A DNA stretch of 64,000 nucleotides from Armatimonadota bacterium (GTDB lineage: Bacteria > Armatimonadota > Fimbriimonadia > Fimbriimonadales > Fimbriimonadaceae): assembly GCA_020438215.1 (NCBI GenBank), contig JAGQUX010000001.1:124001-188000 (forward strand). The letters are read 5' to 3'. Positions 27,599-34,496 of this stretch are shown one piece after another. A model generated the notes under the pieces. The model searched no databases. It had not been told where the DNA came from and worked only from the letters and a program-made list of their open reading frames with translations. The first letter of the stretch is position 1, and each line of letters starts with the position of its first letter. The position numbers were made by a program, and so were the translations under genes.

Positions 27599-28243
27599 CT
27601 ATTCCCTGCCCTCCACCATCTTTTGCCAATTCCCCGCCGGCTGAGAATACTTCGCCACATCGGAATAGTACGCGCAGATCAATGTCCAAGCGTCCAATGC
27701 TTCTCGCGGGATGCTACTCTCCGGCTCGTAGGCAAACTCAATATAACTGATCGGCTGTTGCTGCACGGTCAGGAAGCGCGTGGAAAACGGAGCCCAAAGC
27801 GTCTTCCGTCGCGGATAGAACACGATCTTCCGAGCACTGGTTCGCCACGGGGCAAACGCATTGTCCACCAGATCAAACACCTCCGCGGTGACCAGGCATT
27901 CCACCCGAATGTCTTTCCCGGCAAGAAAATTCCGCTTCACAATTACAGCCTTTGCCAGAACCCGCTCCCCAATCTTCACGACCGCATCGTTCTTGGTTGC
28001 CGTTAAGATGGTCGGCTCCGGCTCGGTATCCAAAGTCAGCGTCCGCCGAGAGCCGCGTTTCAGTAGGCGATTCCGCACGACGCGCTTACCCTCAATATCC
28101 ATAATCTGCAACCCTCCAACAAATGGAAACGACAGATAAGGATTCTCTGCATGCACCGCCCGCCGCCCCGTCAAGTGCGGATGCTTCTGCAAAAAAGTCG
28201 GGTCATTCTGAGTCTGATCCGTGAAATCTTGATACTTCGGCAA
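27599..28243 (-). CDS. Unrecognised soluble protein, paired with the downstream gene
   Basis: 214 residues without signal peptide or membrane segment. Hydrophobic and charged residues alternate in a beta-rich pattern (VVKIGERVLAKAVIVKRNFL, RKIVFYPRRKTLWAPFS), with an acidic C-terminus. The ATG at 28243 is the first of the frame and diverges from tlpA at 28317. I do not recognise a domain. Tight spacing with the next gene suggests a two-gene operon. Confidence 0.55.
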   Translation of the reverse strand: MPKYQDFTDQTQNDPTFLQKHPHLTGRRAVHAENPYLSFPFVGGLQIMDIEGKRVVRNRLLKRGSRRTLTLDTEPEPTILTATKNDAVVKIGERVLAKAVIVKRNFLAGKDIRVECLVTAEVFDLVDNAFAPWRTSARKIVFYPRRKTLWAPFSTRFLTVQQQPISYIEFAYEPESSIPREALDAWTLICAYYSDVAKYSQPAGNWQKMVEGRE

Positions 28244-28316
28244 AGCGGGCTCCCCTTCTCCTTGAGATTACTACGAAACACTCCGCCCAGTTTCAGCGTT
28301 ACAATAGGCAGTAACT

Positions 28317-28844
28317 ATGGTTTCTGCAATTTTCGCCGCCGCCCTGCTGACCTCGCCACAAGACGCCAGCTACCCCGCCTACATCACCGAGAAAACGCTT
28401 TACGCCGATAATGACTTCCGCGGGAAAGAAGCTCCCAAGATGGAAATCGAAACTTGGATGCACAAAAAAGCCCCGGATATGAAGGGCAAAGTCGTCATGG
28501 TGGATTTCTGGGCGACCTGGTGTGGCCCATGCCGAGCCTCCATCCCAGAACTCAACGAATGGCAAAAGCACTTTGAGAAAGATCTCGTGATTGTTGGGCT
28601 TTCCGATGAACCGAAGGACACCATCACCAAGTTCATGGAAGGCACGGCAATGAACTACCACGTCGCCAACGACACCCAGGGCCGACTCAAAAAGATTGTG
28701 GGCGTCAAGGGCATCCCCCACGCAATGATTATCACCCCCGATAATATTGTCCGCTGGCAAGGCTTCCCCGGCTCCGCCGAAGATAAGCTCACCACCGCCA
28801 AGATCGAACAGATCATCTCCGCATGGAAGGCCAGCCAGAAGTAA
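28317..28844 (+). CDS. TlpA/ResA-like thiol-disulfide oxidoreductase
   Basis: 175 residues. The N-terminal hydrophobic stretch (VSAIFAAALLTSP) looks like a signal peptide, so the protein probably acts outside the cytoplasm. A thioredoxin fold with [20 protein letters not shown] carries the WCGPC active site at about residue 68. VKGIPHAMII supplies the cis-Pro. The family reduces disulfides, for example in cytochrome c maturation. A TACAAT 11 bases before the ATG and no Shine-Dalgarno suggest a very short leader. An RT gene converges from downstream. Confidence 0.85.
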   Translation: MVSAIFAAALLTSPQDASYPAYITEKTLYADNDFRGKEAPKMEIETWMHKKAPDMKGKVVMVDFWATWCGPCRASIPELNEWQKHFEKDLVIVGLSDEPKDTITKFMEGTAMNYHVANDTQGRLKKIVGVKGIPHAMIITPDNIVRWQGFPGSAEDKLTTAKIEQIISAWKASQK

Positions 28845-28855
28845 TTTCTGGCTGG
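28831..28855. repeat. Perfect 10-bp inverted repeat across the tlpA stop codon
   Basis: CCAGCCAGAA / TTCTGGCTGG (28831-28840 with 28846-28855) with a 5-base loop that contains the TAA stop of tlpA. No T-run follows on either strand, so it is a hairpin between two convergent genes but not a textbook intrinsic terminator. Confidence 0.7.
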
Positions 28856-28866
28856 AATCATTATAT

Positions 28867-30615
28867 TCAGTAGATATCCTCACCCTCGATGAACAACTCA
28901 GATGCTTCCTCGAAGGAAATTTTGTTTGCCTGAATATCACTGATAATTTCACCTAACTCCTCCACTTTGATCTCAAGTTTTCCTAATCGAGTTTCTAGTT
29001 CACTGGATCCAGATTGTGGAATCAAAATAGAAAACCCTTCAATTTTTTCACCACTACTATAAGTATCGACTAATGCCTTTACCTTCTCTTGAATCCAAGC
29101 AGGCATACCTTGCGGGTGAAAAATAATTTTATATTCAGGTTGTTCAACATCATAAAAGAAAACTTTCTCAGAAAGAAGTTTTCCAAAATACTTATCATTG
29201 CCTACGACTCCTTTTGGATCTTGTAACCATCCGTGATACACCCCCTCATAAATGGCTATCCAGTCTTTTCCATATAGCTCATCCAACTGAATTTTCTTCT
29301 CCCAGTATCTCAATGTATATCCTGGAAGCAAACCGAGACTGTTCGCATGCATCACTTGCACGCCTAAGATTGGATTCGTAATCTTCTGAAGTTTCTTTGC
29401 GATTTCTTTTCCTAAAACTTGCTTTGTTGCTATAACAAGACACAACACCCAAGAGAGATCTTGAAGTTCATTTGTCAATATTGCCCTATCAACCAGCTTA
29501 TCCACTAACACTTTTGAATCAAAACTTGAGACATCAAGCCCGTTTGCCTTCCAGTGCATTATTAGTGAGCAAGCTTTTGGCGCACAACCTCTCTCTGACA
29601 GGACACACTGAGTTAAGTTGGAGAGAACTAAAGAGAGGGCTCTGTCATCAAGCTTGATTACAAATAGTCTCGCAATTGCATATTGAAGTACATTTGATTC
29701 GGGCTCATCTTTTGAATATTGAAACGCAATATCAAAGTATCTCTGCAGGTTCTTTACATTAGCATCCAAATAGTATCCCCCGATTACTCTGGCCCATTCC
29801 CTTTCAACTGCATGTGGCAAACGTATAATTTCGGTTTTCAAAGGGTTTATAGTCAAATGATATTCAGAGAGTGCTGATTCTAAAACAGATAATCCTCGCT
29901 CTGCCTCTTCATAACTGCTAAATACCATTTCATAATCATCATACCAACGAAGAAACTCAACTTTGCCCTGAACAATCTGATCAACTTTTACCAACAGTAA
30001 TTCAGCCAATATAAACGAAGTGTCTGGCCCGATTGGAACACCGTTACTCCTACTCTTTTGACCAAGTCGAACAAGCTTATCCAATTTATTGCCTAAAAGC
30101 CTTTCATTACGCCACTCTTTTTTTGCTCTTGGACTAACGGACCAAGCTAAGGCATGCGTATAGATACTTGAGTAAAATTCCTTGACATCACACCTTACTA
30201 AATACGTTTTATGTGATCTCAAATGCGATAGCTTATAGGGCTTGTTCGAAATCTTTACTCTTGGCACTATATATCTAGCACCAGTTTTAGAATATTTGGG
30301 GGCACTTAGTGAAGACTTGGTTCTCCTCCCTAGCTTAAAAAGGTGATTCCAGTTACCTGTAATAGCCTGTGCGAGCAATCCATGTGTGATTGGGTTAGGA
30401 ACATGCACAGTACGCTTCAGAAGGCCCGGCCGATTGATAGTGAACAAAGCGTGATCGGATGCGACGCACTTATAATCTTTCGCTTTCGGAGTAAGCAAGT
30501 CTCTTTTGCTTTTCTGAGCATATATTTTCGCGAATTCAGAAGTAGTAAACCACGGAGGTAGCTCTTTGGGGAACATACCCTTTGTCACTAATTGTTCAAG
30601 ATGTGATTTGCCCAT
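28867..30615 (-). CDS. Reverse transcriptase, UG/abortive-infection (DRT-like) type
   Basis: 582 residues from the ATG at 30615. An ATG at 30669 would place the start inside the groEL terminator. RT motifs: A, LVRCDVKEFYSSIYTHALAW (Asp143); B, NGVPIGPDTSFILAEL (191-206); C, FLRWYDDYEMVF (Asp226, Asp227). The palm is thus catalytically intact. A region of about 290 residues follows, mostly helical, with DWIAIYEGVYHGWL and VFFYDV near its end, then a coiled-coil tail. No maturase, HNH, HEPN or nitrilase domain is seen, so it is not a group II intron protein. Local GC is about 35-40% against 52-55% around it, a sign of transfer. The IYTH and IPIGPDTS signatures resemble UG defence RTs (AbiA/AbiK/DRT class). 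The subgroup is not assigned. Confidence 0.85.
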   Translation of the reverse strand: MGKSHLEQLVTKGMFPKELPPWFTTSEFAKIYAQKSKRDLLTPKAKDYKCVASDHALFTINRPGLLKRTVHVPNPITHGLLAQAITGNWNHLFKLGRRTKSSLSAPKYSKTGARYIVPRVKISNKPYKLSHLRSHKTYLVRCDVKEFYSSIYTHALAWSVSPRAKKEWRNERLLGNKLDKLVRLGQKSRSNGVPIGPDTSFILAELLLVKVDQIVQGKVEFLRWYDDYEMVFSSYEEAERGLSVLESALSEYHLTINPLKTEIIRLPHAVEREWARVIGGYYLDANVKNLQRYFDIAFQYSKDEPESNVLQYAIARLFVIKLDDRALSLVLSNLTQCVLSERGCAPKACSLIMHWKANGLDVSSFDSKVLVDKLVDRAILTNELQDLSWVLCLVIATKQVLGKEIAKKLQKITNPILGVQVMHANSLGLLPGYTLRYWEKKIQLDELYGKDWIAIYEGVYHGWLQDPKGVVGNDKYFGKLLSEKVFFYDVEQPEYKIIFHPQGMPAWIQEKVKALVDTYSSGEKIEGFSILIPQSGSSELETRLGKLEIKVEELGEIISDIQANKISFEEASELFIEGEDIY

Positions 30616-30620
30616 TATCT

Positions 30621-30660
30621 TATAACAATACCCCTCCCTCAGCAACGGCCGGGGGAGGGG
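30621..30660 (-). terminator. Probable groEL terminator
   Basis: Read on the minus strand: CCCCTCCC, 14-base loop, GGGAGGGG (30660-30653 with 30638-30631), then TATTGTTATA. It begins 32 bases after the groEL stop. The T-run is imperfect. The AT-rich tail may also supply the promoter of the RT gene (TATAAG about 10 bases before its ATG). Confidence 0.65.
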
Positions 30661-30691
30661 CGCAATCAACTAACGGAAGAATCAGCCGGGC

Positions 30692-32649
<1,958 letters not shown>

Positions 32650-32739: not shown

Positions 32740-32792
32740 GCCAGGGAGGTGGAATTGGCAGAGTTGGGTCCTGAGTGCTAAACCCTTCGGCC
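32740..32792 (+). pseudogene. tRNA-Leu-like 5' half, truncated and decayed
   Basis: GCCAGGG (an acceptor arm) followed by AGGTGGAATTGGCAGA matches the 5' end and D-loop of bacterial tRNA-Leu almost base for base. CTGAG at the anticodon position and CCCTTCGG at the variable arm also fit. The D-stem 3' strand, a proper anticodon stem, the T-arm and the 3' acceptor (CCCTGGC) are missing. The sequence then runs straight into the end of the membrane-protein gene at 32792. Judged a pseudogene fragment rather than a working tRNA. Confidence 0.5.
32755..32781 (-). promoter_or_regulatory. CIRCE-like HrcA operator upstream of groES
   Basis: On the minus strand the layout is TTAGCACTC, 9 bases, CTCTGCCAA. 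The first arm matches the CIRCE consensus 9/9. The second matches 5/9 of GAGTGCTAA. The 9-9-9 spacing is exact. It lies 105-132 bases upstream of the groES ATG, with AT-rich TACAATAAT between. HrcA itself is not in the window. The degenerate arm coincides with the D-loop of a tRNA-Leu-like sequence. Confidence 0.5.
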
Positions 32793-33187
32793 TATGCTTC
32801 GACGGTTTCTTTCGAGTTGAACTCGGCTTTGACCGATGGACGCAAGAGCAAGACATAGGTGAACGCGGCCAGTGCCGCATGAAAGATGCTGAAGAAGAAT
32901 GTGATGAACGCGACGATTTGAATGAAGAGATGCCCTTTACGCTTCTGGATGCAATGTCCAACGATCCAGTGGGTTGACCAGCAAAAGACAACCATGGCTG
33001 CCAGCAAAATCGTCTTGACCGTCAGAATATCTTCGCCCCAAATGAATGGCGGATAAGCCATGAAGAAGTAGCCGAAATAGGTCAAAAAGAAAGAGCGGGC
33101 AACGATCTCAATGGGAGTAAATATAACAGAGAGCTTCCACATCGCTTGCAGAGTCTTCAATTGGTCTTGATCCTCTCTGTTCATCAC
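32792..33187 (-). CDS. Small membrane protein, tandem paralogue 4
   Basis: 131 residues, about four hydrophobic segments. It opens DQDQLKTLQAMWKLSVIF and ends with FITFFFSIFHAALAAFTYVL then RPSVKAEF. The start motif (L-x-TL-x-x-x-W/Y-K) and last helix align with the next three genes upstream, so it is one of four tandem relatives. Function unknown. It lies 6 bases after the previous copy. Its stop touches the tRNA-Leu-like fragment. Confidence 0.65.
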   Translation of the reverse strand: MMNREDQDQLKTLQAMWKLSVIFTPIEIVARSFFLTYFGYFFMAYPPFIWGEDILTVKTILLAAMVVFCWSTHWIVGHCIQKRKGHLFIQIVAFITFFFSIFHAALAAFTYVLLLRPSVKAEFNSKETVEA

Positions 33188-33193
33188 CTTATT

Positions 33194-33577
33194 CTACGAT
33201 GATTGGTCGAATGCAGTCTTAATATTCTCGCGACGGAGAATCGTGTAGCACCATATTGCCAGGGCAGAGTGAATTGGGGTCAGACAGATCATTGTCAGAA
33301 AGTTGACCGTGGAAACATAGGAGCGGCTCTTCAGTTTCTGAATGGTTTTGTAGCCTTTGGCATGGAGAACTGACCACATCACTCCGTAAAGGAACGCAAT
33401 AACAAGAATGAGAATTGGTTTACGCGCTTCGGGGCCGCCACCCGCATTCACAATTTGCGCCGCCTGAACTAAGGGCACTCCTAAAACAAAGACAAGAATG
33501 TCGCCCAGCACAAACATCTTGTACAGCGCTTGGAGCGTGTTTAAGTCCTCTTTGTCTTGCTTACTGAGTTCGGTCAT
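33194..33577 (-). CDS. Small membrane protein, tandem paralogue 3
   Basis: 127 residues with four likely membrane segments. It opens KQDKEDLNTLQALYKMFVLG and ends FLTMICLTPIHSALAIWCYTIL then RRENIKTAFD. This is the same architecture as its neighbours, with a polar N-terminus, paired helices, a basic loop (KGYKTIQKLKSRS) and a final helix followed by a short cytoplasmic tail. It overlaps the preceding copy by 17 bases. Confidence 0.65.
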   Translation of the reverse strand: MTELSKQDKEDLNTLQALYKMFVLGDILVFVLGVPLVQAAQIVNAGGGPEARKPILILVIAFLYGVMWSVLHAKGYKTIQKLKSRSYVSTVNFLTMICLTPIHSALAIWCYTILRRENIKTAFDQSS

Positions 33578-34037
33578 CGGTGCCTTGCTCTGATGCTACC
33601 GGGTTTGAGTCTGCTGCGGGTGGAGCCGCTGGCTTCCCTTCCAGCCAATCCCGGATGTTCGGGCGGTTGATCGTGACCAACGAATACACCCCGAGTGCCG
33701 CCCCGAACGGCATATTCAGACAGAGAAGCGCACTCGTCACGGTGATAAAAGTGAATCCGGTTCCCTGTTCGAGCTTGCCAAGCACTTGCCAGCAACCCCA
33801 AGAGAACGCCGCCATCGCCGCCATCACAAAAATCCCCGCAACCGCGAAAATCCCTCCGAATAACTGTGCGCCCGGATCATTTGGGCTCATTGATTCCGGC
33901 GAGGTAACGAATCCGAGTCCAATGAGGGTGTGGGGCAATCCGCAACAGATCCCCACCGCAAACAGAATCGCCGCGATCTTGAAGAAAAGCTTCAGCAGAT
34001 CAAGTTGGCGGATGTCGTCGGGGGTCAGGCGTTCCAT
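33561..34037 (-). CDS. Small membrane protein, tandem paralogue 2
   Basis: 158 residues, four likely membrane segments. It opens PDDIRQLDLLKLFFKIAAIL. The last helix is ALLCLNMPFGAALGVYSLVT followed by INRPNIRDWLEG. That end is nearly superposable on paralogue 1 (CLN-P-G-x-x-LGV-x-x-LV-x-IN-P-I). The C-terminal tail is longer and rich in Pro/Ala. It is directly adjacent to paralogue 1 (one stop, then ATG). Confidence 0.65.
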   Translation of the reverse strand: MERLTPDDIRQLDLLKLFFKIAAILFAVGICCGLPHTLIGLGFVTSPESMSPNDPGAQLFGGIFAVAGIFVMAAMAAFSWGCWQVLGKLEQGTGFTFITVTSALLCLNMPFGAALGVYSLVTINRPNIRDWLEGKPAAPPAADSNPVASEQGTDDRTQ

Positions 34038-34496
34038 TTACTTGCTCAGCATCTGGGATTTGATTTCTGGCTTATTGATTTCCACCAAAGTCAGCACTCC
34101 CAGAATTGTCCCGAGCGGGATGTTCAGGCAAGATATACCGCTCATAATTGTGATCAAAATATAGCCAGATCTCTTACGGAGGCAATAACCTGTCGCGCCA
34201 CATAACACGCCACCCAAAAGCGTAACTATTAAGGCCGGCAGAACTGATATAAAACTGAGAGAGAGAAAGGGGCCAAACAAGTCTTGCATTTCTGGTTGCT
34301 GAGGCACAGATTGACTCGCACTTGCAACCTCTCCACCTATAAAAAGCAGGGTAGCAATGCCAACAAGCGAACCAAGAACAAACAGGCCCGCAACGATGTA
34401 CCAAAAGATACTCAGGGTGTTGAGGTTTCCAGAATCTACTCGCGCTACCTGAAAATCCGTCACTAGCGGCGGTTTTTGTTCTTCATTCATCCGCAT
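34038..34496 (-). CDS. Small membrane protein, tandem paralogue 1
   Basis: 152 residues, four likely membrane segments. After a polar N-terminus (about 30 residues) comes GNLNTLSIFWYIVAGLFVLG. The last helix is GISCLNIPLGTILGVLTLVE followed by INKPEIKSQML. It is the first of four tandem relatives reading away from the acyl-CoA dehydrogenase, whose stop lies 5 bases before this frame in the shared strand direction. No known domain recognised. Confidence 0.65.
   Translation of the reverse strand: MRMNEEQKPPLVTDFQVARVDSGNLNTLSIFWYIVAGLFVLGSLVGIATLLFIGGEVASASQSVPQQPEMQDLFGPFLSLSFISVLPALIVTLLGGVLCGATGYCLRKRSGYILITIMSGISCLNIPLGTILGVLTLVEINKPEIKSQMLSK

Follow-up and report, generated by a model that had tools for sequence, protein, structure and literature searches.

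The window analysed here is a stretch of 64,000 nucleotides from an Armatimonadota bacterium, in which a gene for a reverse transcriptase (RT) of 582 amino acids lies on the minus strand between tlpA and groEL (Table 1). The open reading frame starts with an ATG at position 30615, finishes with a TGA ending at 28867 and contains no internal stop codon. Three intact catalytic motifs had been described in an earlier note on this DNA, and these were found at exactly the residues claimed, namely Asp143, NGVPIGPDTS (191-200) and WYDD (224-227). On alignment with 65 homologues, Asp143 and Asp226 were invariant and Asp227 was nearly so. The same note held that an intron-protein domain is absent, and this was borne out, RVT_1 being the sole Pfam match and the group II RT model TIGR04416 giving 48 bits, where its cut-off is 300; for the transposases said to be missing nearby, the check covered some of the near neighbours only.

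Table 1. Features of the RT locus, numbered from the first base of the window
Feature	Position	Strand	Basis
RT gene, DRT6 family	28867..30615	-	Intact ORF; PADLOC Drt6 407 bits; fold match to 9wy8, Z 43.3
RT-like domain comprising fingers and palm (approximately residues 1-272, boundary approximate), which carries Asp143, Asp226 and Asp227	29800..30615	-	Motif positions; conservation; only part that aligns with group II and DGR RTs
Domain of alpha-helical repeats (approximately residues 273-490), as is typical for Class 1 UG/Abi RTs	29146..29799	-	Predicted helices, pLDDT mostly >90; can be aligned as far as approximately residue 492 with DRT6, DRT4 and AbiK
C-terminal tail of low confidence, residues 491-582, with ...EGEDIY at its end; priming is proposed to start from Tyr582	28870..29145	-	pLDDT <65; outside family profiles; Tyr enrichment at homologue C-termini
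Stem-loop just past groEL, probably the groEL terminator; clear U-run absent	30629..30662	-	Fold of 30600-30700 (minus strand) -40.6 kcal/mol, z -2.6; relatives also have stem-loops after groEL
Perfect 10-bp inverted repeat CCAGCCAGAA-GTAAT-TTCTGGCTGG over the tlpA stop codon	28831..28855	.	Read from the sequence

The start codon of the RT gene follows the groEL stem-loop by about 15 nt. This stem-loop has no T-run, whereas most same-genus relatives do have one there, and with the RT start codon so close behind it is conceivable that transcription of groESL reads through into the RT gene. At the other end, the inverted repeat lies 11 nt past the RT stop codon and is possibly a shared terminator. 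Further along the minus strand (32792-34496), between groES and an acyl-CoA dehydrogenase gene, four small consecutive genes encode similar-looking membrane proteins, which, in those tested, had no PADLOC match and no Pfam match above the cut-off.

The RT gene stands out in its composition. Its GC content is 0.397, as against 0.542 for tlpA, 0.571 for groEL and 0.520 for the whole window, which agrees with the lower GC claimed earlier, and every other 1749-nt stretch of the window not overlapping the gene has a GC content of at least 0.472. The GC and codon-usage comparison that had been proposed as a check showed that the gene has the most atypical codon usage in the window: among the 51 ORFs of at least 200 amino acids its codon-usage likelihood is the lowest (z = -4.19), and its GC3 is 0.37 where the ORF mean is 0.57 (sd 0.05). 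No full-length homologue was found in seven same-genus genomes or among the 290 further genomes searched from the phylum. Because of the odd composition and the missing homologues in these genomes, horizontal gain of the RT gene is supported, and the earlier suggestion of acquisition from outside is upheld.

That the gene had been inserted between tlpA and groEL could be checked only in part. The gene is foreign, but the insertion event itself is not demonstrable, since in the same-genus genomes examined tlpA and groEL do not lie side by side and neither an empty site nor a clean insertion junction could be reconstructed from them. The groEL 3' flank was considered as an insertion hotspot. Over 27 loci the 3' flank fell into 20 unrelated groups, but the 5' flank was variable too (12 groups), so that the pattern is suggestive only and the idea was not adopted. 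A separate observation was made in the same-genus genome G005, where a lone AT-rich gene for 478 amino acids (L038:3414-4850, minus strand) lies directly past groEL. It had no Pfam or PADLOC match, and a PD-(D/E)XK-like EIK motif was noticed by eye. Identity to the sister genome G004 is 95% as far as 13 nt beyond the groEL stop codon, after which the two diverge. The region 3' of groEL may thus be one in which foreign genes are acquired.

When the protein was used as a single query, no homologue was found in the genome or viral collections; a query with an alignment of three sequences retrieved 80 homologues from genomes and three from viral contigs. Identity to these is at most about 30-33% over the full length, with 38% over one fragment of 229 residues, and their hosts belong to the Pseudomonadota, Acidobacteriota, Cyanobacteriota, Chloroflexota, Bacteroidota, Bacillota, Planctomycetota and other phyla. 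A same-strand ORF lies within 60 nt of the homologue in 15 of 70 cases upstream and 10 of 62 downstream. No conserved partner gene was identified, as no family occurred in more than four of 132 homologue neighbours; the commonest were type I specificity subunits, along with some helicases, methylases and integrases. A search for Rfam RNA families in 28200-31200 returned none, even at E up to 1. As judged from these neighbourhoods, the homologues mostly stand alone, and the window RT is taken as a stand-alone gene without an RNA or protein partner.

The assignment to DRT6 is based on profiles, structure and phylogeny. The top PADLOC model was Drt6, with 407 bits over residues 5-493, followed by the Drt4-labelled models PDLC02177 (382 bits) and PDLC02179 (342 bits), with other classes far lower; the AbiK profile, for instance, gave 106 bits, as compared with 711 on a true AbiK. 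Other members of the clade reach higher Drt6 scores (510-593). The closest PDB entry by sequence was 9wy8 (E 6e-45, identity about 25%), a cryo-EM structure named hexameric DRT6 in the structure library. An AlphaFold2 model built from 66 sequences had a mean pLDDT of 88.7, mostly above 90 in the core up to about residue 490, and could be superposed on 9wy8 over 481 residues with an rmsd of 1.8 Å. What the two have in common is the core (residues 3-492), the catalytic residues, the fold and the stand-alone gene. Phylogenetic analysis placed the protein as sister to a multi-phylum DRT6 clade of 21 members, the resulting set of 22 rows having an SH-aLRT of 96 and the branch a length of 1.83; the DRT4, AbiK, Abi-P2 and Drt3b rows fell outside this clade, in a tree with few references of other classes and a single row for DRT4. 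It was concluded that the RT is a divergent member of the known DRT6 family and a stand-alone Class 1 UG/Abi RT. DRT6 is taken by us to be UG12, which fits with the fact that other UG numbers have PADLOC models of their own. The profile search and tree suggested in the earlier note thus agree with its placement of the protein among stand-alone UG/Abi-class RTs, apart from those of group II introns, retrons and DGRs. Its proposal of an undescribed system has to be given up, DRT6 already having a PADLOC HMM and a cryo-EM structure.

The alignment to 9wy8 stops short of residues 491-582, which form a tail of 92 residues, predicted at low confidence to have helical segments. Counted after residue 488, the Tyr-ended tail has 94 amino acids, as compared with a clade median of 47. 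In 73 complete homologues the tails range from 17 to 141 amino acids and cannot be aligned. A weak resemblance to the ExoVII small subunit XseB was noted in the tail (28870-28965, about residues 550-581), but it was below the cut-off (E 0.007 in NCBIfam and 0.06 in Pfam) and was taken as a coiled-coil resemblance.

The ends of these tails were examined in 44 representatives of less than 50% identity. Tyrosine was found in the last three residues 23 times, where 5.0 are expected from body composition and 4.3 from shuffles within the tail, none of 2000 shuffles being as high. Presence or absence of this tyrosine changes 17 times on the tree among 63 rows; therefore, tails turn over while the tyrosine recurs. 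The last position is enriched in phenylalanine as well (11 as against 2.1 expected). Tyrosine is missing from the last ten residues of about one third of the representatives, and from the entire tail of five. In the N-terminal loop, from which AbiK is primed at Tyr44 (PMC9508834), no excess of tyrosine was seen in the DRT6 clade (23 of 44, with 28.8 expected). Priming from the other end is known from DRT3b, a Class 1 enzyme that uses Tyr666 of its 667 residues (PMC13174585), and from DRT10, which uses a C-terminal Tyr or Ser (PMC12632851). On account of the terminal excess, its absence from the loop and these two precedents, a C-terminal tyrosine is predicted to be the primer of DRT6, which in the window protein would be Tyr582.

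The relatives differ in this respect. AbiK and Abi-P2 (7r06, 7r08) share the RT and helical domains with the window protein and are known as protein-primed, untemplated enzymes (PMC9508834), but their structural Z values are 26.6 and 23.4 and they prime from the N-terminal loop (Tyr44 and Tyr61). DRT3b (UG8) has its priming tyrosine beside the C-terminus, the Vibrio Drt3b ending in ...KRVYD; unlike the window RT, for which no such partner was seen, it works with Drt3a and an ncRNA.

The aromatic tip could instead be a tail for docking proteins, comparable to the SSB tip, and not a priming site. Such a function would fit the enrichment of terminal Phe alongside Tyr, as well as the five homologues (L068, L077, L089, L106 and L135) whose ends, DDIPF, DDLPF, DDIPL or DDIPI, are like that of E. 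coli SSB; the 44 representatives include three of these, with 0.02 expected in shuffles, and tips of this kind could recruit SSB-binding enzymes. However, many Tyr-ended tails lack surrounding acidic residues (GGGIY, SSSSY, GITQY), Tyr is in greater excess than Phe over the last three residues (23 vs 14), and the EGEDIY tip of the window protein has no proline. The host SSB ends in DEYDPFADE, to which the idea of an SSB-like tip is a poor fit. Docking in place of priming is regarded as rather unlikely, and the two roles are mutually compatible. A combined proposal is put forward tentatively, at somewhat less than even odds: DRT6 would use for priming a tyrosine that ends, or nearly ends, a fast-evolving tail (Tyr582 here), like DRT3b and unlike AbiK and Abi-P2, and the SSB-like tip of some members could recruit DNA-processing enzymes, exonucleases for example, by which the product would be kept harmless until infection.

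The long branch, and the lack of a close relative in any collection searched, would also be expected of a separate lineage, branching deeply near DRT6, with another mode of action, for example a different product or a function borne by the tail, whose helical segments extend beyond the family profiles. Against this, the core is structurally almost identical to DRT6, and the range of tail lengths in the clade makes a divergent tail usual; such a lineage is considered improbable. Still less probable is an enzyme of the DRT4 (UG15) type, for which the chemistry would be much alike. DRT4 (9vdo, 9l9s) has the same architecture and is likewise a single gene, and the two Drt4-labelled PADLOC models scored close behind Drt6; these models are non-discriminating, however, because the rest of the DRT6 clade also includes members that score 461-676 bits with them. 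The curated NCBI Drt4 model gave 200 bits, under its cut-off of 450 and as compared with 686 on a true DRT4, the structural Z was 34.4 for DRT4 as against 43.3 for DRT6, and the DRT4 row lies outside the DRT6 clade. The one DRT4 examined (L044) has no tail tyrosine. An RT of a group II intron, retron or DGR can be dismissed, since it would have only the RVT_1 core in common with the window protein, the TIGR04416 score is far under its cut-off, the only retron model matched was St85 (24 bits, cut-off 235), structural Z values to these classes were at most 15.4 and mostly over the RT core, and no associated intron, msr-msd or template-repeat RNA was found.

The preferred reading, to which a probability of about 0.75 is given, is that the gene is a horizontally acquired, single-gene anti-phage system of the DRT6 family, which would act as a hexamer in template-independent, Tyr-primed synthesis of ssDNA that is toxic in infection, the primer being Tyr582 at the end of the tail. 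According to two reviews (PMC13213688 and PMC13314766), DRT4 makes random, template-free ssDNA from a conserved tyrosine, and the phage protein ORF55, which shields the 3' ends of this DNA, is reported also to activate DRT6. By analogy with its characterised relatives, the window RT would assemble as a hexamer and add dNTPs, without a template, onto its own tyrosine to give protein-linked ssDNA, which nucleases would normally clear. Once a phage has infected the cell, one of its DNA-binding proteins (ORF55 in the case of DRT4) would protect the 3' ends, so that the DNA would accumulate and the infected cell would stop growing. That the primer is the tyrosine which closes the flexible C-terminal tail is our own inference.

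With this gene, DRT6 is recorded, as a single horizontally gained gene, in a phylum otherwise without it among the genomes searched. If the proposed priming site is correct, replacement of the C-terminal Tyr by Phe in DRT6 should abolish both the protein-linked DNA and defence, which would amount to a one-residue prediction for a family whose product chemistry is called unresolved in reviews of 2026.
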